A stretch of 40,510 nt of DNA from positions 1 through 40,510 of the forward strand of contig VBIL01000032.1 in assembly GCA_005879975.1 (NCBI GenBank), in the 5' to 3' direction. Made by a program: the position numbers and the translations under genes. The notes below the pieces were generated by a model that did not search any database, had not been told where the DNA came from, and saw only the letters and a list, made by a program, of their open reading frames with translations. Shown piece by piece: positions 12,750 to 25,472 of this stretch (positions within the stretch are counted from its first letter, which is position 1; the number at the start of each line of letters is the position of its first letter). The DNA comes from Chloroflexota bacterium (GTDB lineage Bacteria; Chloroflexota; Limnocylindria; P2-11E).

Positions 12750-12793
12750 TGCCGCCGCTGCCCGGTGCGTCGGCGGCGCGGAGGTGGCGGGAG

Positions 12794-13822
12794 ATGCGCA
12801 GGTTCAGAGGCGCGCTCGTTCCGGTCACGGTCCTATCGGTGATCTTCGCGGCGTGCGGCGCCGCGACGCCGGCCCCCAGTCCATCGCCCTCCTCGGGCGC
12901 GACACTCGCGCCCGAGCTCGTCAAGATCAAATCCTCGTACGGCAACGTGACGCCGGCGAACCTCGCACCCTTCTTCGCGAAGGAGATGGGCATTTTCGCG
13001 AAGCACGGCCTGGACGTCGACCTCGTACTTATCGACGGTGGCGCACCGTCGGCGGCCGCGCTCATCTCTGGACAGATCCAGTTCGGGAACTTCGGTGGGA
13101 CCGAAACGATGAGCGGAGTCGCCGCCGGCTCCGACATGGTCGCGGTCTCGCTCTTCGTTCCCGTGACGCCCTGGCAGCTCCTCGCGAAATCCGACTACAA
13201 GACGCCTGAGGACCTACGCGGCAAGGTGGTGGGGGTCGCGTCCAAGGGCGGTTCGAGTGAGGTCGCGGCGGACCTTTCGCTTCAGCGGCTCAAGCTCGAC
13301 CCCAACAAGGACGTGACCAAACAGGCCCTCGGATCGGTCGCGAACCTCACAGCGGCGATGATCGGCGGGGCCGTCTACGCCGGGCCCGGGCATCCGCCGG
13401 ACACGGTGCTGCTCCTCAAGAACGGCTTCAAGGTGATCGTCGACCTCGCAGCCGAGAAGATCCCGGCCACCGACAACTGCACGGTCGTGCGTCGCTCTTA
13501 TTTGCAGACGAATCGCCAGACGGTGCAGGCGTATATCGACGCCGAGATCGAAGCCATCGCCGCCGCCAAGAAGGACAAGCCTGGAACGATCAAGGTCATG
13601 AGCAAGCTCCTGAAGATCGAAGACCAGGACGCCCTCGGCCAGGCATATGACTTTTACGTTGGCCAGATCATGCCGACGTATCCGCACCTCGACGTCGCGG
13701 CATTCAACTACACCAGGGACGCGCTCGCCGCCACAAATCCGAACGTCAAAACCTTGGACGTCACGAAGGCGATCGACGATTCGTTCGTCGCCGATGCGGA
13801 GAAGCGCGGGGTCGGTAAATAG
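12794..13822 (+). CDS. NitT/TauT-type substrate-binding lipoprotein
   Basis: A 342-aa binding protein. The signal peptide ends at lipobox IFAAC (Cys21), with a Pro/Ser linker after it. The mature part (KIKSSYGNVTPANLAPFFAKEM, written here in part: ANLAPFFAKEMGIF; GHPPDTVLLLKNGF) is typical of SsuA/TauA/NMT1-like proteins that bind sulfonates, pyrimidines or aromatic acids. ATG 12794 follows GGAG; upstream in-frame ATG 12749 lies inside the operator and encodes a poor leader. No permease or ATPase gene lies beside it; the leftward NitT/TauT pair at 3996-5725 could serve it. Its TAG overlaps the presumed ATA start of the thiamine-diphosphate enzyme (ATAG at 13819-13822), so the two are coupled. 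Confidence 0.88.
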   Translation: MRRFRGALVPVTVLSVIFAACGAATPAPSPSPSSGATLAPELVKIKSSYGNVTPANLAPFFAKEMGIFAKHGLDVDLVLIDGGAPSAAALISGQIQFGNFGGTETMSGVAAGSDMVAVSLFVPVTPWQLLAKSDYKTPEDLRGKVVGVASKGGSSEVAADLSLQRLKLDPNKDVTKQALGSVANLTAAMIGGAVYAGPGHPPDTVLLLKNGFKVIVDLAAEKIPATDNCTVVRRSYLQTNRQTVQAYIDAEIEAIAAAKKDKPGTIKVMSKLLKIEDQDALGQAYDFYVGQIMPTYPHLDVAAFNYTRDALAATNPNVKTLDVTKAIDDSFVADAEKRGVGK

Positions 13823-15456
13823 CGGAGCAGCGGTACGGGTCGGACGTCATCGTCGACCTGCTCCGGGCGTTCGGGATCGAATACGTCGCCCTGAACCCCG
13901 GAGCGTCGTACCGGGGTCTTCACGACTCGCTCGTCAACTACGGCGCCAACAAGCCCGAGATCATCCTCTGCACTCATGAAGAGATCGCGGTCTCCATCGC
14001 ACACGGGTACGCGAAGGCGACGGGCCGGCCGATGGCCGCCGCGGTGCATGACGTGGTCGGTCTCCTCCACGCGACGATGACCATCTACTACGCGCACGTG
14101 GACCGCGCGCCCGTGCTGGTGTTGGGCGCGACGGGACCGGTCGATCGGAACAAACGACGTCCTTACATCGACTGGATCCACACCGCGCAAGTGAACGGCA
14201 ACGCCGTGCGCGACTACACGAAGTGGGACGACCAGCCCGCGACCGTGGCCGACTTCCCGGCGTCCTTCGCGCGCGCCTACCGTATGGCGACCACGGAGCC
14301 GTGCGGCCCGGTCTACCTCTGCTACGACGCGGGACTGCAGGAGGAGAAGCTTGCCCGGCCGATCGACGTGGCCGAGGTTGCCGCGGCCGCACGGCCCAGC
14401 GCGGCGCAGGCCGATCCTGCCGCGATCACGAGGGCCGCTGACCTCATGGCGCGAGCGGAGCGGCCCGTCATCATCGCCGAGTTCACCGGACGACATCCGG
14501 ACGCGGTCGGCGACCTCGTCGCGCTGTTCGTCCTCGCGCTCGACGTCGGCGACCTCTCGCGGTCGCTGAACGAGCTCGACCGATTGACGAACGAGAAGCG
14601 CTCGCGCATTCCGGCAGGGACGCCGATCGTCGACATCGGTCTCTCTGAGCTGCGACAGAGCAAGTGGGCCGAGGACCTCGGCCAGTTCCAACCCGTGGCT
14701 CTTTCGATCGTCGCGGACACGCGGCTCGCGATCCCCGTGCTTCGCGCGGCGGTCCGCGAGCGCGCCGGGGGACGCGATCGATCGGCGCGCTGCGCCGAGC
14801 TGCAGCGAAAGCACGACGAGATCCGCGCACGGTGGGAGCGCGATGCTCGGGAGGACTGGGACGCGTCTCCGCTCACGGCGCCGCGCCTCGCCTCCGAGAT
14901 CTGGTCGGTGATCAAGGGCGAGGACTGGATCCTGACGTCGAACACGCTCGAGGACTGGGCGCTGCGTCTGTGGGACATCGACGGCCCGCGGCGTCATCCG
15001 GGCCGCTCGTTCGGGACGGCGACGCAGATCGGAACCTCACTCGGCGTTGGCCTGGCGTATCGCGGCACGGACCGCCTCGTCGTCGACATTCAGCCCGACG
15101 GTGATCTCCTGTACGACCCGGGCGCGCTCTGGACCGCCGCGCACCACCGCATCCCTCTGCTGGTCGTCATGTACAACAACCGGGCTTACTACAACGACTG
15201 GGAGCATCAGCTCCGGGTCGCGCAGCATCGCGGCACGCCGAAGGAGAACGCGCGCATCGGTCAGGAGATCGACGACCCGGCGCCCGACTTCGCGATGCTC
15301 GCGCGTTCGTTCGGCTGGCACGCCGAGGGTCCGATCGCCGATCCCGCGAAGGTACGTCCGGCTCTCGAGCGCGCGCTCGAGGTCGTTCGCAGAGAGAGGC
15401 GACCCGCGCTCGTCGACACGATCGTCCGCCACCGGCAAGAGAAGCGTTTTCGCTAG
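13819..15456 (+). CDS. Thiamine-diphosphate-dependent enzyme (acetolactate synthase/benzoylformate decarboxylase fold); no canonical start codon
   Basis: About 545 aa with three TPP-enzyme domains. The N-terminal pyrimidine-binding domain includes ALNPGASYRGLHDSL and the activating Glu in THEEIAVSIAHGYAKATGRP. The C-terminal domain has the TPP/Mg motif starting at PDGDLLYDPG and ending at MYNNRAYYNDWEH (GDG...NN type). The only in-frame ATG is 14032, which would delete most of the first domain including the Glu. Between the in-frame TAA at 13816 and 14032 there is no ATG, GTG or TTG. I therefore extend it to ATA 13819, which forms a 4-nt overlap (ATAG) with the preceding stop. Start and length are inferred. 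It probably cleaves or makes a C-C bond in a 2-oxo acid or acyl-CoA; the substrate is unknown. Two transporter binding proteins flank it. Confidence 0.82.
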   Translation: MAEQRYGSDVIVDLLRAFGIEYVALNPGASYRGLHDSLVNYGANKPEIILCTHEEIAVSIAHGYAKATGRPMAAAVHDVVGLLHATMTIYYAHVDRAPVLVLGATGPVDRNKRRPYIDWIHTAQVNGNAVRDYTKWDDQPATVADFPASFARAYRMATTEPCGPVYLCYDAGLQEEKLARPIDVAEVAAAARPSAAQADPAAITRAADLMARAERPVIIAEFTGRHPDAVGDLVALFVLALDVGDLSRSLNELDRLTNEKRSRIPAGTPIVDIGLSELRQSKWAEDLGQFQPVALSIVADTRLAIPVLRAAVRERAGGRDRSARCAELQRKHDEIRARWERDAREDWDASPLTAPRLASEIWSVIKGEDWILTSNTLEDWALRLWDIDGPRRHPGRSFGTATQIGTSLGVGLAYRGTDRLVVDIQPDGDLLYDPGALWTAAHHRIPLLVVMYNNRAYYNDWEHQLRVAQHRGTPKENARIGQEIDDPAPDFAMLARSFGWHAEGPIADPAKVRPALERALEVVRRERRPALVDTIVRHRQEKRFR

Positions 15457-17877: not shown

Positions 17878-20034
17878 TCACTTCGGCAGCTCGGCCCAGA
17901 TCTTCTCGGCGGTCACCGGCAGGCTCATAACCCGCGCGCCGCAGGCATCCTGGACGGCGTTCGCGACGGCAGCGCCGACCGCGGGATTGGCGAGCTCGCC
18001 GACCGACTTCGCGCCGAAAGGCCCGGGTCCCGGATGGTCGGTGATCAGCTCGATCCGTAGTGGCGGCGCGTCGGCGATCGTCGGGAGCTTGTAGTCGCCG
18101 AGGTTCGCCGTCACGACACGGCCGTCCTCAACGCGAAGCTCTTCCATGACGGCCTGACCGAGGCCGAAGATGAACCCTCCCTCGAGTTGCCCGCGCAGCG
18201 CGACCGGATTGATGACCTTGCCGACATCGGCAACGAGCGTGGCGTCGTCGATCTTCAGCGAGCCCGTTTCGCGGTCGATGGTTACCCGTAGGGCGTAGGC
18301 GTACGTCGAAGCCTCGTGCGTCTCCTGCGCCGCTTCGCCCGTAACCTCGATCTCGCTGGCATCGTCGATCGAGCGCCCGAGCTCGGCGAGCTTCGCGTTG
18401 AGCTTTCGCGCCGCGTCGAGCGCGGCGCTCCCCTGGACAGGCGTCACGCGACTACCGCCCACCCCCGGATCGCTGAGCACGGCGTCGGTCGTGCCACGGC
18501 TTACGGCGACGCGATCGAGCGGGATGCTCAGCTCGGCCGCGACTATTCGCTGGAAGAGCGTGTGCGCGCCGCCGCCCTGGTCGGACACGCCCGTGCGGAG
18601 CTCGACGCGTCCGCCGGCGAGCGTCCGCAGAACCATCGAGGCGCGGCCGCGCCCGACGTGCCTGACCCCGAGCGCGACGCCCCAGCCCCACCAGTTCACC
18701 TGGTTAGGCCTCGCCAGCGAGGGTCCATAGCGGGATGCCGTGCGCAGCCGGGCAAGCAGCGCAGGGCCGTCGGTACCGTGCCACGGCTTTCCGGTGACGT
18801 CGACGTCCCCGTGTCGCACGATGTTGCGCTCGCGGAACTCGAGCGGATCGATCGCGAGGTCGCGCGCGATGAGATCGATATGCGATTCCGCGGCGAATGC
18901 GTTCTGGGGCTGCCCCGGCGCGCGCGCATGCCCGGCGGGGACCTGGTTGGTGTACACGGTCGTCGCCTCCACACGCGCGGCGGGCACGCGGTACCCCGCG
19001 AGCGTGAGCATCGCGTCGCCGGGCATCAGCGTGATCACGGGCTTGCCGGCCGCGTACGCGCCGCCGTCGAACAGGACGCGCGAGGTATGCGCGAGGATCC
19101 GACCTTCCGCGTCGACGCCGGTGCGCAGCGTGATCGTCGCCGCGTGTCTGGTGTTGGTCGCCTGGAGGTCGTCGGCGTAGCGCGTAAGCGCACGGACCGG
19201 ACGTCCGGTCGCGCGGGCGAGGTGATAGAGGACGAACTCGTCGATCGAAAGACCCTTGCCGCCGAAGTCGCCGCCGATGTGCCCCGCGTCGACGACGATC
19301 CGCGGCTCGGGAACGCCGAGCGCGACGGACATGTGCTGCCGCAGCGCGAAGGGCGCCTTGTTGGTCGTGACCACGCGCACGGTCTCGCCGTCGAGCCAGA
19401 CAAGGGTCGCCCGCGGCTCGATGTACGCCTGGTGCGTCCGTGGCAGCGTGAACGTGTGCTCGTACACCTTGTGCGACGTGCGGAACCCGGCTTCTACATC
19501 GCCGTGCTCATGAAGGGCCTGTCCCTGGACGTTGGGATGCGATCGCTGCGCGCGCGTGCCGCCGAGGAACGCGTAGTTCGCGGCGTCGGGGTGCAGGACC
19601 GGCGCGCCCGCCGCAAGCGCGGCGTCCGCATCGAGTACCGCGGGAAGCTCCTCATACTCCACCTCGACCAGCCGAGCAGCCTCATCGGCGATCGCGGCGG
19701 TGTCGGCGGCGATCGCCGCCACGCGATCGCCGATGAAGAGCACGCGATCCCAGCAGAGGATCGGCCAGTCCTGAAGCCTGCGCCCCAAGCGGCCGGGCTT
19801 CGTGTCGGCGCCGGTGATCACGGCGCGAACGCCCGGAAGCGCCCGCGCGGCCGAGACGTCGATCGAGACGATGCGCGCGTGCGCGTATGGGCTCGTCACG
19901 TACGCCGCCTGCAGCATGCCGGGCATGACGACATCGGCGGCATAGCGGGCCGCCCCGGTCACCTTGTCGCGGCCTTCGACCCGGTACTCAGGCTGGTCCA
20001 GGATCGAGGCGGAGCGCTCGGCGACACCGGTCAC
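17878..20034 (-). CDS. Molybdenum hydroxylase large (molybdopterin-binding) subunit, xanthine dehydrogenase family
   Basis: A 718-aa catalytic subunit. The order is an N-terminal substrate and dimer domain (PEYRVEGRDKVTGAARYAAD), GGDFGGKG of the cofactor pocket, ARAPGQPQ at the position of the CO dehydrogenase active-site loop, and near the C-terminus FGAKSVGEL with the catalytic Glu. It lacks the AYRCSFR loop of CO dehydrogenase, so it is not CoxL. Hydroxylation or dehydrogenation of an aromatic or heterocyclic (possibly CoA-bound) substrate is more likely. The start is GTG 20034, in a GTGA overlap with the CoxG-like gene; the frame is open to 20064. It is the last of seven coupled genes in the aromatic operon. 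Confidence 0.9.
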   Translation of the reverse strand: MTGVAERSASILDQPEYRVEGRDKVTGAARYAADVVMPGMLQAAYVTSPYAHARIVSIDVSAARALPGVRAVITGADTKPGRLGRRLQDWPILCWDRVLFIGDRVAAIAADTAAIADEAARLVEVEYEELPAVLDADAALAAGAPVLHPDAANYAFLGGTRAQRSHPNVQGQALHEHGDVEAGFRTSHKVYEHTFTLPRTHQAYIEPRATLVWLDGETVRVVTTNKAPFALRQHMSVALGVPEPRIVVDAGHIGGDFGGKGLSIDEFVLYHLARATGRPVRALTRYADDLQATNTRHAATITLRTGVDAEGRILAHTSRVLFDGGAYAAGKPVITLMPGDAMLTLAGYRVPAARVEATTVYTNQVPAGHARAPGQPQNAFAAESHIDLIARDLAIDPLEFRERNIVRHGDVDVTGKPWHGTDGPALLARLRTASRYGPSLARPNQVNWWGWGVALGVRHVGRGRASMVLRTLAGGRVELRTGVSDQGGGAHTLFQRIVAAELSIPLDRVAVSRGTTDAVLSDPGVGGSRVTPVQGSAALDAARKLNAKLAELGRSIDDASEIEVTGEAAQETHEASTYAYALRVTIDRETGSLKIDDATLVADVGKVINPVALRGQLEGGFIFGLGQAVMEELRVEDGRVVTANLGDYKLPTIADAPPLRIELITDHPGPGPFGAKSVGELANPAVGAAVANAVQDACGARVMSLPVTAEKIWAELPK

Positions 20035-20483
20035 CTGGCGGTCATGACCTGCCGGGCCAGGCACTCGGCGAAGTCCCCCATCAGCTGATCGGCCTTGCGC
20101 TTGATCACGGCCTGCCCGAACTCGCCGAGACGGCCCATGACCGCGAGGTCCGTCGCGATCTTCACCTCGGTCTGCCCCTCCTTCTCCGCGAGTGCCAGGT
20201 CCATCGTCGCGCGTATCGCGCCGCCGACGCGCGAGTCCTTCGCATCCGCCTTGAGCGACGCCGTGCCCGCCTGCTCGTCGCGTGCGGTCATCACGAAGTC
20301 GCCGTCGAGCACTAGGCGCACCGGGCCGATCTGCACGGCAAGCGTCCCTTGGTACTTGTCCTTACCGGATGCGCGAACGGACGCGACGCCGGGAACGCAT
20401 CGCGCGGCGGAGGGGATGTCCATGATCCGCGCCCAGACCTTGTCGCGGGGCGCCGCGACGGTCGCCGTGTGTGTGAACTTCAA
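20031..20483 (-). CDS. CoxG-like SRPBCC protein (molybdenum hydroxylase accessory)
   Basis: A 150-aa SRPBCC/START-fold protein (FTHTATVAAPRDKVWARI; VPGVASVRASGKDKYQGT; GPVRLVLDGDF; KRKADQLMGDFAECLA). This is the CO dehydrogenase subunit G family, linked to membrane anchoring or assembly of molybdenum hydroxylases. The start is TTG 20483 in a TTGA overlap with the preceding FAD-subunit stop; this gives the family-typical (M)KFTHTATV beginning. The GTG-started molybdopterin subunit overlaps its stop. Presence between the FAD and molybdopterin subunit genes argues that it works with this particular hydroxylase. It has no signal peptide or membrane segment. Confidence 0.85.
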   Translation of the reverse strand: MKFTHTATVAAPRDKVWARIMDIPSAARCVPGVASVRASGKDKYQGTLAVQIGPVRLVLDGDFVMTARDEQAGTASLKADAKDSRVGGAIRATMDLALAEKEGQTEVKIATDLAVMGRLGEFGQAVIKRKADQLMGDFAECLARQVMTAR

Positions 20484-21328
20484 CGGGTGACCCGCGCGAG
20501 CGCGCGCCCGGTCCACACGCGGGCCATCTCGCGCTTGTACGCCGCCGAGCCTCGGAGGTCGTCGATCGGATCGACCTCGTCGGGTACGAGCTCGAGCGCA
20601 TCCCGCACCCGCGACGGCGGCTGGCCACGTAGCGCGTCCTCGACGCGCCGTGCGCGGATCGGAGTCGGTCCGACAGCTCCGAGAACGATCCGTGTCTCCG
20701 CGATCGTGCCGTCTGGAGCGAAGCGCAGGGTCGCCGCGACGGAGACCGTCGCATAGTCGTCGGCCGTCTTCGGCAGGAACTTGAGGTACGTCTCGCGCGA
20801 GCCCGGCTCGATCGGCGGTAGGACGACACCGGTGATGATCTCGTCGTGCGCAAGCGACGTCGTGAAGTGATCGACCGCGAGCTCGTCGATCGGTAGCGAG
20901 CGCTCGCCCCGCGACGAACGAATCGACACCGTCGCATTCAGGGCAGCAAGCATCGGGGGCGGGTCCTGCGCCGGATCGGCGTGCGCGAGGTTCCCCCCGA
21001 CCATCGCCTGATTTCGTATGCGGACGGTGGCGACGCTTGCGAACGCGTCGGTCAGCGCGGGGCTGTACATGCGTGCCTCGGGCGAACGCTCTACCGCGCG
21101 GAGCGTGGCCGTCGCGCCGATGCGCAGCCCGCCGTCCCGCGTGGGCGTGATGCCACGGAGATCGTCGATCGCGCGCAGCCCGATGACGTGCCCGGGCCGG
21201 AGGAGTCCCTGGCGCATGAGGAGGACGGTCGCCGTGCCGCCCGCCATGAGGTGGGCATCGTCGCCGTACCGGTCCAGCAGCGCGAGCGCTTCGGCAAGCG
21301 AGCGCGGCTCGTGGTAGTCGAACGTCAC
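20480..21328 (-). CDS. Molybdenum hydroxylase FAD-binding subunit (CoxM-like)
   Basis: A 282-aa subunit of the FAD-binding domain of molybdopterin dehydrogenases (PF00941-type) with a C-terminal CO-dehydrogenase-flavoprotein-like domain. The flavin-binding motifs AGGTATVLLMRQG and GNLAHADPAQDPPP are visible. It shuttles electrons from the Fe-S subunit to an acceptor. The start GTG 21328 (VTFDYHEPRSLAEALALL) lies in a GTGA overlap with the Fe-S subunit stop; the longer open frame upstream is the shadow of that gene. It has no extra [4Fe-4S] insertion like that of 4-hydroxybenzoyl-CoA reductase, so the reductase reaction is less likely than hydroxylation. Confidence 0.9.
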   Translation of the reverse strand: MTFDYHEPRSLAEALALLDRYGDDAHLMAGGTATVLLMRQGLLRPGHVIGLRAIDDLRGITPTRDGGLRIGATATLRAVERSPEARMYSPALTDAFASVATVRIRNQAMVGGNLAHADPAQDPPPMLAALNATVSIRSSRGERSLPIDELAVDHFTTSLAHDEIITGVVLPPIEPGSRETYLKFLPKTADDYATVSVAATLRFAPDGTIAETRIVLGAVGPTPIRARRVEDALRGQPPSRVRDALELVPDEVDPIDDLRGSAAYKREMARVWTGRALARVTR

Positions 21329-21813
21329 AAGCGATTCGGAGGGCTCTGCCCCCCGACCCCCGAGGCTTTCTGGATCGCGCGCTCGATCCCGTAGTAGCCG
21401 GTGCAGCGGCACAGGTTCCCCATCATCCAGGTGCGGATCGCTTCGTGGTCCGGCCGTGGCTGCTCGCTGAGCAGAGCGGTCGCGGCAATGAGCTGTCCCG
21501 GCGTGCAGATCCCGCACTGGAAGCCACCTTCGCGGATGAACGCGTCCTGCAGTGGCGTGAGGTCATTTTTCGCGAGACCTTCGACCGTGGTGATGCGCCG
21601 TCCGTCGGCGAAGACCGCGGGCAAAAGACAGGCGGACAGGAGCTCGCCGTCGACGAGAACGCTGCACGCTCCGCAAACGCCGACGGCACAGCCGAGCTTC
21701 GTACCAGTGGCGCCGCAATCGTCGCGGATGACCTCGATGAGCAACCGATCCGCCGCCACTTCGAGCTCGTGTTTTGTGCCGTTCAGGGTGAACGACAGGC
21801 GGTGCGTGCTCAT
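21325..21813 (-). CDS. Molybdenum hydroxylase [2Fe-2S] subunit (CoxS-like)
   Basis: A 162-aa electron-transfer subunit with a plant-type ferredoxin fold. Cysteines lie in CGATGTKLGC, VCGAC and LLSAC, and a second cluster is held by CGICTPGQ and CRCTG in the all-helical C-terminal domain. ATG 21813 is in an ATGA overlap with the ligase stop, and TGA at 21325-21327 overlaps the GTG of the FAD subunit. The last residues (GGQSPPNRL) are encoded by a GC-rich palindrome at 21338-21354 and may be an inserted tail. Confidence 0.93.
   Translation of the reverse strand: MSTHRLSFTLNGTKHELEVAADRLLIEVIRDDCGATGTKLGCAVGVCGACSVLVDGELLSACLLPAVFADGRRITTVEGLAKNDLTPLQDAFIREGGFQCGICTPGQLIAATALLSEQPRPDHEAIRTWMMGNLCRCTGYYGIERAIQKASGVGGQSPPNRL
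21338..21354. repeat. GC-rich palindrome inside the end of the CoxS-like gene
   Basis: GGAGGGC (21338-21344) pairs with GCCCCCC (21348-21354, one G-T pair) around TCT. It codes the Gly/Pro-rich tail of the Fe-S subunit and resembles the palindromic element at 180-215. A dispersed repeat that landed at a gene end is possible; two examples do not prove it. Confidence 0.35.
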
Positions 21814-23339
21814 CTCGATCGCAGCTTGAAGCGCTGGATCTTGCCGGTGGACGTCTTGGGTAGCTCCGGGACGAACTCGATCCATCGAGGGTACTTGTAT
21901 GGCGCGAGGCGGTCTTTCACGAACGCGCGCAGCTCGCCGGCGAGGGTTTGGCTCGCGGCGCCGTTCTTCAGCACGACGTAGGCGCTGGGCTTGATCAAAC
22001 CCTCGGCGTCTTCGCGCCCCACGACCGCACATTCGAGGACGGCCGCGTGCTCGAGCAGAGCGCTCTCCACCTCGAGCGGCGAGACCCAGATGCCGCCGAC
22101 CTTGAGCAGATCGTCGCTGCGCCCGTGATTCGTGTGGTAGCCGTCTTCGCTCACGGAGTAGCGGTCTCCCGTGAAGACCCACTCGCCACGGAACGTGCGT
22201 TTGGTCGCATCGCGCTTGTTCCAGTAGCCGAGCGCGGTCGACGGTCCGCGGACCATCAGGTCGCCGACCGCGTCCGGCGGCAGCGGCGCGCCGGTCTCGC
22301 CGACCACTCGCGACTCGTACCCCGGAATCAGCTCTCCGGACGTGCCCGGCCGGACCCGGCCGGCGAAGTTCGAGATGGCGATGTACCCGATCTCGGTGGA
22401 ACCGATCCCGTCCAGGATCTCGAGACCGAAGCGGGCCCTCCAGCGCTCGAAGAGCGGCCGCGGCAGCGCCTCTCCCGCGGAGATGCAGAGCCGGACCGAC
22501 GAGAGGTCGTACGCGGCGCCCTGTTCCGCGGCCGCGAGAAGCGCTGCATACGAGGTCGGCACGCCGTAGAAGACGGTCGGCCGTTCGGCGGCGATCGCCG
22601 CGAAGATCGCGCGCGGCTCCGGGCGCCCGGCGAACAGGATCGACGTCGCGCCGTGCCGCAACGGGATAACGAGCGAGTTGTTCAAGCCGTACGAGAAGAA
22701 GAGCTTGGCGACGCTGAACACGCGGTCGTCGGAAGATAGCCCGACCACGTGCCGACCGTGCAGATCGGCCGGGGTCATCGCGCTCGCATGCAGGTGGATC
22801 ACGGCCCTCGGTGCACCGGTCGTGCCGCTCGAGTACTGCCAGAAGCACATGTCATCGGGACTCGTCGGCTCGGCGGCGAGCACGCTCGAGGCAGCGGCCA
22901 GGATTTCCCGCAGCGCCGCCCGGCCTTTCGGAGGGTCGCCCGCGACGGTGATGTGCGCCAGATGCGGAAGCTCCTTGGTGAGGGGCGCGATCTGCGCGAG
23001 GAGCGCCTGGTCCACGACGGCGACGCGGGCCCGGCAGTCGGCCAGGAGGTACGCATAGTCGTGGGCGGTGAGGAGCGTCGAGAGGGTGACGGGGACGGCG
23101 CCGATCTTGATCGCGCCAAGGAACACCGCGACGAAGTCTGGCGAGTCCGCCAGGAGGAGCGCGATGCGCTGCTCAGGCTCGAGGCCGAGTGAGCGCAGCG
23201 CGTTGCCGGCGCGGTTGACGGATCGCGCGACGTCCTTGTACGTGAGGGTCGCGCCCTCAAAGCGGATTGCGGGACGGTCAGCGCGACCGGCATCCAAATG
23301 CGAGTCGACGAGCGCGCTCGCGAGGTTGAACGTCGTTAC
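21810..23339 (-). CDS. Benzoate-CoA ligase-like acyl-CoA synthetase; start codon GTA inferred
   Basis: A 509-aa ANL-superfamily ligase that adenylates a carboxylic acid and forms its CoA thioester. Motifs seen are YSSGTTGAPRAV (P-loop, residues 169-180), DGIGSTEIGYIAISN (benzoate-ligase-like), GRSDDLLKVGGIWVSP (hinge region) and LPKTSTGKIQR with the catalytic Lys near the C-terminus. The family start (M)TTFNLASAL corresponds to GTA 23339, which with the preceding TAA forms a 4-nt overlap GTAA; every later junction of this operon is also a 4-nt overlap. No ATG, GTG or TTG exists until TTG 23297. It sits between two diiron proteins and the molybdenum hydroxylase, so it makes the CoA substrate for one or both. 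The acid is unknown. Confidence 0.9.
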   Translation of the reverse strand, partial: VTTFNLASALVDSHLDAGRADRPAIRFEGATLTYKDVARSVNRAGNALRSLGLEPEQRIALLLADSPDFVAVFLGAIKIGAVPVTLSTLLTAHDYAYLLADCRARVAVVDQALLAQIAPLTKELPHLAHITVAGDPPKGRAALREILAAASSVLAAEPTSPDDMCFWQYSSGTTGAPRAVIHLHASAMTPADLHGRHVVGLSSDDRVFSVAKLFFSYGLNNSLVIPLRHGATSILFAGRPEPRAIFAAIAAERPTVFYGVPTSYAALLAAAEQGAAYDLSSVRLCISAGEALPRPLFERWRARFGLEILDGIGSTEIGYIAISNFAGRVRPGTSGELIPGYESRVVGETGAPLPPDAVGDLMVRGPSTALGYWNKRDATKRTFRGEWVFTGDRYSVSEDGYHTNHGRSDDLLKVGGIWVSPLEVESALLEHAAVLECAVVGREDAEGLIKPSAYVVLKNGAASQTLAGELRAFVKDRLAPYKYPRWIEFVPELPKTSTGKIQRFKLRSR

Positions 23340-24058
23340 AGGTACTTCCGACCTTTCAGCTTGTCGGGCACAACGAGACCGACGCCCTCGATCAGGGGAT
23401 CGACCTCGGCGATGTACTGGCGGCGGGCCTCCTCGTTCGTGCGACGCTTGAGGCCCCACTCGATGTAGCGCTCGGTCCGGGCCGACTGCGACTGTCCGAA
23501 CATGTCGAGGCCGACGGTGTACCACTTGTCGACCGCTGCTTGCGCCTGCTCGCGACCTTCGTCGCCCGACTTCACGAGCTTCTCGAGCTGCTGCTGGCCG
23601 TAGCTGATGTGCCCCTTCTCCTCGCGAAGGATCTGGCCCAGGTAGTCCTCGATCGGCCGGTACGTGGACCCGTTCATCTCCTCGAGCTGGTACTCGCCCA
23701 CCTTGTCGATGAGCATCCCGAACGCCGCGAAGTCGGCCCAGGTTGGCATGTCTTCCTTGAAGGCGTCGACCTCGCGCTTGCTGCGGGGCCGCGTGAGGAT
23801 GTCGGAGCGATCGATGTCCAGTAAGCCGAGCAGCCGGAGCATCTTGCGGCAATGGTCGATCTCCTCGGCCGCGATCCGCGCGACGCGCCACTGATCGTCG
23901 ACGGTCGGCGCGCGCAAGGTCCAGTGGTCCACGTAGATATGGGGTCCGCCGATCTCGCAGTCCGCCTGGATGGTGAGTAGGCGCGTGAGAAGATCCTGGT
24001 ATTCCTTTGGCATCTTCGTGAAGTCCATGGGCTCGACCTTGTCGTTGAACTGCGCCAC
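23336..24058 (-). CDS. PaaA-like ferritin-fold diiron protein
   Basis: A 240-aa protein of the phenylacetyl-CoA epoxidase family (PaaA/PaaC). It carries a full set of carboxylate-bridged diiron ligands: E35, E66-x-x-H69 (AAEEIDH), D118 and E147-x-x-H150 (REEKGH). GTG 24058 is chosen because GGGGAGG lies 5 bases upstream; the longer frame to 24250 would encode a nonsense leader. It is closest to PaaA by length and motif but is not followed by paaBCDE genes. Its partner is probably the BoxB-like protein encoded 82 bases upstream. It presumably activates O2 for ring epoxidation or hydroxylation of a CoA-bound aromatic. The TAA stop lies in a GTAA overlap with the ligase. Confidence 0.85.
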   Translation of the reverse strand: MAQFNDKVEPMDFTKMPKEYQDLLTRLLTIQADCEIGGPHIYVDHWTLRAPTVDDQWRVARIAAEEIDHCRKMLRLLGLLDIDRSDILTRPRSKREVDAFKEDMPTWADFAAFGMLIDKVGEYQLEEMNGSTYRPIEDYLGQILREEKGHISYGQQQLEKLVKSGDEGREQAQAAVDKWYTVGLDMFGQSQSARTERYIEWGLKRRTNEEARRQYIAEVDPLIEGVGLVVPDKLKGRKYL

Positions 24059-24140: not shown

Positions 24141-25472
24141 CTAGCCGGACTCCTGGACCCAGCGGACGGATTTCGCGCACGGACAGCCCCCACCGACACG
24201 GGCGAGGCGCGGCATCGAGTTGATCGCTTCTTTGAGCGGCGTCTCGCCACGCGTGACCTTGCGCTGCAGATCGGCCCAATGCTTCACGTCGATCGACGCG
24301 CGGTACGCCTCCGGCAGATTCGCGAGGACGTGAGCGATGTACTTCTCGACATCGGTGAACGCCCCGCCGTGCGTCCCCACCATCTGGTACGCGAATTCGC
24401 CACGTCGGCGGAAGAAGCGCCGGTCCGGCAGCCGCAGTAGGTCCTCGGAGCCGACGCCATCGACGGTCTCGCCGGACTTGATCCGCGCGAAAGCCTTCTC
24501 GGCGTCGTCGCGCGAGAGCTTGGGGAAACGCGCCCGGACATAGCGCTCGTTCAGGTCGTCGTACATACGCTGGCATTCGTCGATGTACATGTCCTGCGCC
24601 TCGCGGTTGGCCATGTCCTTGAGGCCAAATTTGACGTTCGTCTGGCCGCCCCGCTCGTCGCCGAACATCTCGAGCCCTCTCCCGAACCACTTGTGCGTCG
24701 CCCTTTGGATGTCGCTCATCGTGATGTAGCCGTCGCCACGCGCCGCGGCCTCGACCCAGCGCCGCAGCGGGATCACGCCCGCCGCTAGGTGGAACGCCTC
24801 CTCGCGCAGCATCGGCGGCATGCTCGACGCGTAGGGCTTGTACGCGGAGATCTTCTGCATCGTGAGCTGGTACTTCCCTACCCGATCGATGAACGCGGCG
24901 AACACGACGTTGTCGAGGAAGCTGTCGTACTCGAGGTTGAACGCGGCGAGCAGGTGCGAGCCGGTCTGCATGGAGAGGATCTCCTCCACCATGTCCGAGG
25001 CCTTCGTGTTGGTTACCGGCGACCAGTCTGCGCTCGTGAGCAGATGGACCATCTGGTACCCGTGACGCAGCTCCTCGGCCATCACACGCAGCGCCCACGC
25101 GTGATCCTGCGGCTCCTGCGCGCGCGCGAGCGTGCCCTGGTGCTGCTGGATGGAGCCGAACTCGGTCGACGCCTGCGCCTTGATCGCCGTCAGGAGGTGC
25201 TGCGCCGCCTCCTCGGGTAGTTCCCTTGGCGCGAGCGCTTTTTCCTCACCCTTGCGCTCGCCGACCTCGATCTCGCTCGGAATGTCCTCCGCGATCTTCG
25301 CGCAGAGGCAGAACGGCTCGTCCTTCGGAAAGAAGCGGTCCCATTCTTCGGCGAGCTTCGGATAGTCCGGAAAATTGTGCCGCTGCCAGTGCTCGATGGC
25401 CTCGTGGTACGGCTTCGGCAGCGTGCGAACCTCGTCTCTCACAGCACTAGCGTACCGAGTTTCGCTTGTCAT
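24141..25472 (-). CDS. BoxB-like benzoyl-CoA epoxidase (diiron)
   Basis: A 443-aa ferritin-fold diiron protein related to BoxB, the oxygenase of aerobic benzoyl-CoA breakdown. HLLAAFNLEYDSFLDNVVFA, FIDRVGKYQL and SMPPMLREEAFHLAAG match BoxB. Iron ligands are E104, E134-x-x-H137, D196 and E225-x-x-H228. The N-terminus is shorter than in BoxB of proteobacteria, so function is an analogue rather than an identity. No boxA or boxC is seen. The upstream operator overlaps ATG 25472 (operator 25471-25483). If the -10-like TATGAC in it is used, transcription would start about at this ATG, and GTG 25442 is an alternative start. It is the first gene of the seven-gene operon and probably sets substrate specificity. 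Confidence 0.85.
   Translation of the reverse strand: MTSETRYASAVRDEVRTLPKPYHEAIEHWQRHNFPDYPKLAEEWDRFFPKDEPFCLCAKIAEDIPSEIEVGERKGEEKALAPRELPEEAAQHLLTAIKAQASTEFGSIQQHQGTLARAQEPQDHAWALRVMAEELRHGYQMVHLLTSADWSPVTNTKASDMVEEILSMQTGSHLLAAFNLEYDSFLDNVVFAAFIDRVGKYQLTMQKISAYKPYASSMPPMLREEAFHLAAGVIPLRRWVEAAARGDGYITMSDIQRATHKWFGRGLEMFGDERGGQTNVKFGLKDMANREAQDMYIDECQRMYDDLNERYVRARFPKLSRDDAEKAFARIKSGETVDGVGSEDLLRLPDRRFFRRRGEFAYQMVGTHGGAFTDVEKYIAHVLANLPEAYRASIDVKHWADLQRKVTRGETPLKEAINSMPRLARVGGGCPCAKSVRWVQESG

Follow-up and report, generated by a model that had tools for sequence, protein, structure and literature searches.

Candidate NUA start codons at four-base stop overlaps in a benzoate-CoA ligase family gene and a TPP enzyme gene of a Chloroflexota genome

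How does translation begin in a gene that has no ATG, GTG or TTG at the point where its protein family begins? The question is raised by a benzoate-CoA ligase family gene in the 40,510-nt stretch of DNA analysed here (the window), a contig of a metagenome-assembled genome (MAG G000; 82.7% complete, 210 contigs) whose near relatives among named records are soil 'Chloroflexi bacterium' MAGs. The gene belongs to a minus-strand operon, in which it is preceded by a BoxB/PaaA-like and a PaaA-like gene and followed by a CoxG-like gene and three genes for subunits of a xanthine-dehydrogenase-type Mo hydroxylase (Table 1). An earlier note on this DNA had placed the ligase start at a GTA codon within a GTAA overlap, pointing to the same four-base geometry at the four later junctions of the operon. 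These junctions are indeed ATGA (21813-21810), GTGA (21328-21325), TTGA (20483-20480) and GTGA (20034-20031), and the start at the GTAA overlap is supported by the evidence presented below. The note was right and understated its case: the pattern is recurrent, is found at the level of the clade, and has a second gene in the window.

Table 1. Genes and stop/start overlaps of the window considered in the text.
Feature	Coordinates	Strand	Evidence or remark
BoxB/PaaA-like gene, operon head	24141..25472	-	TIGR03225 63 bits, under cut-off
PaaA-like gene, start GTG 24058, protein end GRKYL	23336..24058	-	PF05138 101.6 bits; PaaA 98 bits
GTAA overlap	23336..23339	-	Inferred ligase start GTA 23339-23337 over PaaA-like stop TAA 23338-23336
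Benzoate-CoA ligase family gene, 509 aa and TGA	21810..23339	-	TIGR02262 638.5 bits; PF00501/PF13193; PDB 2v7b 473 bits
2Fe-2S subunit, xanthine-dehydrogenase-type Mo hydroxylase, ATGA junction	21325..21813	-	Domain/profile matches
FAD subunit, GTGA junction	20480..21328	-	Domain/profile matches
CoxG-like protein, TTGA junction	20031..20483	-	Domain match
Mo-binding subunit, GTGA junction	17878..20034	-	Domain/profile matches
ABC substrate-binding protein (NMT1/THI5-like)	12791..13822	+	PF09084 53.6 bits; upstream of TPP enzyme
ATAG overlap	13819..13822	+	Inferred TPP start ATA 13819-13821 over ABC-gene stop TAG 13820-13822; TAA 13816-13818 before
TPP enzyme, 545 aa	13819..15456	+	PF02776 residues 6-111, PF02775

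At the end of the PaaA-like gene the minus strand reads GGT CGG AAG TAC CTG TAA, and the GRKYL that it encodes is invariant in 12 of 12 aligned proteins. The PaaA-like and ligase genes lie on the same strand with the four-base stop/start overlap geometry (GTAA 23339-23336), the overlap codon being GTA with TAA, not NTG with TGA. Downstream, the frame reaches its first canonical codon at TTG 23297, 14 codons on, confirming what had been said of it. Homology had been described as beginning at (M)TTFNLASAL, and this holds: positions 2-507 of the 508 in the TIGR02262 profile correspond to ligase residues 3-508 (638.5 bits against a cut-off of 375.25), and in alignments with benzoate-CoA ligases of solved structure the match starts at residue 4, FNLA. 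On sequence grounds, the homology supports a probable start at the GTA overlap. The exact codon is ambiguous, since a further in-frame GTA stands two codons 5' of the overlap (23345-23343), as it does in all nine relatives' and window ligase junctions that lack a canonical start; the predicted N-terminal peptide of the ligase would begin fMet/Met-TTFNLASALVDSH or TTFNL. Inspection by eye shows a possible Shine-Dalgarno sequence, GGAAG at 23349-23345, 5 nt before the GTA, but the conserved R-K of GRKYL is specified by the same nucleotides.

The PaaA-like gene was matched 19 times in 18 of the 29 genomes of the order, with the ligase directly after it in 14 of the 19 cases; the ligase is absent, distant or elsewhere in G010, G011, G018, G021 and G022. 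In two relatives (L065, L119) the ligase is missing and the 2Fe-2S subunit gene comes straight after the PaaA-like gene; the L119 junction is CTGA with a CTG start. Nine of the 14 adjacent junctions, in eight genomes (G000, G002, G005, G006, G007, G008 twice, G009 and G027), have no ATG, GTG or TTG near the ligase N-terminus, which is more than chance. The four-base geometry is present in all nine, with GTA in G000 (CTG TAA) and CTA in the other eight (CTC TAG). Comparison of the start codon in relatives, proposed earlier as a check, thus found CTAG at eight junctions in seven other genomes, likewise without a canonical start. A ligase GTG is present in G012, G013 and G015, and in G004 and G001 a GTG lies inside a hairpin-like insert. 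This insert (L045/L047) is G/C-rich and palindrome-like, sits in frame between the PaaA-like stop and the ligase, brings the whole stop-to-FNL distance to 44 nt, and holds the sole nearby canonical GTG.

If the ligase starts at the stop or before it, indels at these junctions should keep the frame relative to the upstream stop. The distance from the stop to FNL was 5, 14, 17 or 44 nt in 11 of the 13 junctions measured (G027, whose FNL is not conserved, falls outside this set), all 2 mod 3 and hence in the -1 frame; the exceptions, G013 (28 nt) and G015 (25 nt), are 1 mod 3 and each has its own GTG. Purifying selection acts on the part of the ligase N-terminus that precedes the first canonical start. 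Among group-2 ligases (five sequences), pN/pS was 0.31 over codons 1-38, about 2.3 in the shifted frames and 0.34 over codons 39-60. For the group-1 ligases (five sequences) it was 0.40 over the first 37 codons from FNL, and 0.52 over the same codons in the three that lack a canonical start.

The TPP enzyme gene on the plus strand shows the non-canonical overlap start more cleanly than does the ligase. Its ATA lies within ATAG and an in-frame TAA adjoins it directly on the 5' side, so that no upstream start is possible. The first ATG of the frame is at 14032, 71 codons on, and gene calling from canonical starts loses 71 residues. The junction carries ATA (ATAG) in G000, G004, G008 and G010 and GTA (GTAG) in G007, the TAA stands immediately before the ATA in G000 and G004, and the distance to a conserved RYGSD is 8 or 11 nt. 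Relatives of the TPP enzyme in other genera mostly have an ATG, GTG or TTG nearby; within the same genus this is true of G002, G005 and G009, with G012 and G022 assigned to neither side. Over the 65 codons that precede the ATG, four genomes gave a pN/pS of 0.06, with 7.2 and 4.9 in the shifted frames and 0.05 after the ATG; G007 was dropped from this calculation for an in-frame indel, leaving four of the five sequences.

What recurs in two genes, then, is the sequence of the overlap, a conserved geometry and phase, an N-terminus under selection, and the absence of a canonical start close by. The best explanation, to which a probability of roughly 0.74 is assigned, is that the ligase is translated by termination-coupled re-initiation at an NUA codon overlapping the stop. 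Not all ribosomes ending the PaaA-like gene at UAA would leave the message; those remaining would move back by one base and begin at the NUR codon made by the stop itself, which would be GUA in the window ligase, CUA in its relatives, and AUA or GUA at the TPP junction. Because every stop codon begins with U, a four-base overlap always gives NUR (NUG with UGA, NUA with UAA or UAG), and the initiator anticodon CAU pairs centrally (A-U) with all of these codons. The initiator tRNA would keep this central pair and tolerate a mismatch at the first base, the third base or both. As start codons, GUA and CUA are poor. A ribosome that has not left the mRNA may re-initiate with less need of a strong start codon, and by analogy with re-initiation work in E. 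coli the normal initiator tRNA might serve at GUA and CUA. Translation begun in this way may be weak or sensitive to IF3.

Several other explanations deserve consideration. A fusion protein with no separate start, made by a -1 ribosomal frameshift in the final codons of the upstream gene, would fit the -1 position of the downstream frame relative to the stop in 11 of the 13 measured junctions and the open upstream frame of group 2. It is nevertheless unlikely, as a search by eye revealed no slippery heptamer at CGG AAG TAC CTC TAG or at the other ligase junctions inspected, and none of the complete upstream genes at the inspected loci was seen to be fused in frame. At the TPP junction the -1 frame has a TAA directly before the ATA in G000 and G004, and the protein encoded upstream resembles an exported lipoprotein (a lipoprotein-like signal, FAAC, was read by eye as its lipobox), to which a frameshift fusion of the TPP enzyme is implausible. 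Slightly less probable is a ligase start at a canonical codon some 40 codons upstream, inside the PaaA-like gene. The window has an in-frame GTG 40 codons before the GTA, in a frame open to 24101, and a GTG or ATG in the same frame about 40-44 codons upstream is found in seven of the eight ligase cases enumerated (G006 left out): at -40 in six junctions (GTG, or ATG in G005) and as a GTG at -44 in G008a. This codon, however, is forced by the upstream EW codons (GAG-TGG), and the 40 residues that it would add, rich in Arg and read from an alternative frame, have no counterpart in the family model. An upstream start is also inapplicable to the TPP enzyme in G000 or G004. Among the enumerated ligase cases, G007 alone excludes it directly, through an in-frame TGA 14 codons 5' of its FNL with no ATG, GTG or TTG between.

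A start at TTG 23297, the preceding residues being untranslated, is very improbable. The TTG does exist at +14 in the window, but the relatives have no such codon: across the nine junctions the first canonical codon downstream falls between +10 and +61, and in the relatives it lies at +10, +31, +39, +47 or +61 (the +31 of G006 was read by eye). The stretch that would be skipped is conserved and under purifying selection, and the solved ligases align from residue 4. A little less credible again is the use of another near-cognate codon in the short N-terminus, such as ACG or GTC, in place of the overlapping NUA; G000 has ACG at +1 and +2, and G007 and G008a have it nearby, but group 2 has just GCC GCG (or GCA) between CTA and TTC, and the TPP gene has no near-cognate between the ATA and the conserved RYGSD. 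Least probable is an assembly or consensus error hiding a true GTGA. G000 is indeed a single MAG of limited completeness in many contigs, but CTAG stands at the same place in eight other junctions from seven further genomes and ATAG at the TPP junction in four genomes, and an error at the ligase GTA is very unlikely.

Two changes to the initiation machinery were also considered and rejected. Loss of IF3 was rejected on the strength of matches in nine of the 11 genus genomes, eight of them over the cut-off. An altered initiator tRNA was likewise rejected: 30 of 32 tRNA matches in G000 were scanned, with ordinary anticodons, and a CAT initiator tRNA was found in eight of the 11 genus genomes, although that of G000 itself was not found in its assembly. 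As both the CAT initiator tRNA and IF3 are present in the genus, no exotic tRNA or factor is needed for re-initiation at the overlap. The initiator tRNA genes of G001, G004, G005 and G008 (L282-L285) seemingly have T, not C, at position 1 (T1-A72). The infC gene has a conserved ATA near its expected start in seven of seven sequences read (L238-L242, L244, L245), with no canonical start before about +40 save an ATG at +21 in L238; this ATA is a known kind of infC start.

The breadth of the pattern was gauged in a 740-kb sample of the genus, its contigs picked partly for carrying ligase matches, in which a codon-usage gene finder called 701 genes and 295 close same-strand pairs. Pairs without a canonical start in -45..+33 numbered 22 in the -1 phase (12 with TGA, 10 with TAA or TAG) and seven in other phases; several of the phase 0 and +1 pairs resemble mis-called gene starts and were kept in the counts, not as evidence. 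With canonical four-base overlaps set aside, and with p values that ignore relatedness, the absence of a canonical start was more frequent in the -1 phase than in the others both for TAA/TAG stops (10/35 vs 5/49; Fisher p 0.04) and for TGA stops (12/41 vs 2/32; Fisher p 0.016). The 12 TGA cases comprise 11 CTGA and one artefact, whose frame meets a stop immediately beyond the overlap. The 10 NTAR cases divide into five from the ligase, on contigs chosen for carrying it, three from the TPP gene and two that are weakly supported. Further CTGA cases come from other genera of the family (five), the class control G033 (two) and Nonomuraea (one), so CTG at the overlap is not special to the genus. 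The controls hold so few same-phase pairs with TAA or TAG stops (seven in G033, none in Nonomuraea) that restriction of NTA starts to the genus cannot be cleanly claimed on statistical grounds.

A gene beginning LTH.HRHDDEAIDPAALAGELEEGQ has CTG within CTGA in G005:C101 and G026:C38, and the same CTG in G002:C181; another overlap site has CTG in G026 and GTG in G005 and G009. A CoA-transferase-like gene (LLGGCRVLDLA) in G005:C101 (near 27774), G002:C181 and G026:C38 (67819, minus strand) has no canonical start up to about +25 codons in the three genomes and lies in +1 phase to the upstream TAG. It is tentatively suggested, at less than even odds, that terminating ribosomes throughout the genus re-phase by -1 and begin on any NUR, such that AUA, GUA, CUA and CUG would be natural starts throughout operons and start-codon identity would be largely relaxed in coupled translation.

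If re-initiation at the overlapping NUA is correct, a natural bacterial start can be set by where it lies relative to a stop codon and not by which codon it is, and gene callers limited to ATG, GTG and TTG truncate or misplace such genes, as with the 71 residues of the TPP enzyme. The junctions also provide natural sequences for testing whether re-initiating ribosomes relax start-codon choice.

Parts of this proposal have clear precedents. NTGA (-4) gene pairs are coupled by termination-reinitiation (PMC6728339, PMC12548453), and the junctions described here resemble them in joining same-strand genes by a four-base stop/start overlap, in the style of the operon's four later junctions. The available portions of those two papers describe only NTGA at -4, whereas here the start is NTA and the stop TAA or TAG. 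In E. coli, according to the accessible text of PMC2268962, both initiator tRNA and IF2 are required for re-initiation, an excess of IF3 lowers it, and codons other than AUG can serve when mutant initiator tRNAs match them. The same text cites an IF3-dependent GUA initiation-codon mutant of E. coli recJ (Haggerty and Lovett 1997), in which, as here, GUA starts a gene apparently coupled to an upstream ORF by re-initiation. As that text presents it, this is the nearest precedent for putative use of GUA or CUA with a normal initiator tRNA; the recJ codon, however, is a laboratory mutation, rescued by altered IF3, and not a conserved start found in nature. A report of re-initiation in frog oocytes, known from part of its text (PMC4648390), was not used as evidence here.

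Natural starts outside the canonical three are also known. The sigR start of Streptomyces is GTC in 32 of 34 species and GTT in two, according to the portion of PMC5472188 consulted, and is similarly a conserved natural start outside ATG, GTG and TTG in a high-GC bacterium; sigR, however, comes first in its gene pair and is served by a strong RBS, whereas here the odd codon belongs to the downstream gene and overlaps a stop. The AUU and AUA starts of infC and other genes, which come with extended Shine-Dalgarno motifs and are interpreted as weak starts subject to regulation (PMC13009471, as far as its available text goes), share with the TPP gene a natural AUA, but no stop overlap is described in that text. 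As in natural genes with non-canonical starts, a conserved codon outside ATG, GTG and TTG was found here with no canonical alternative. The open-access literature searched yielded no report of natural NTAA or NTAG overlap starts. Non-canonical starts and four-base coupling are thus each known, and what appears to be new is their meeting in conserved natural NUA starts set by TAA and TAG overlaps.
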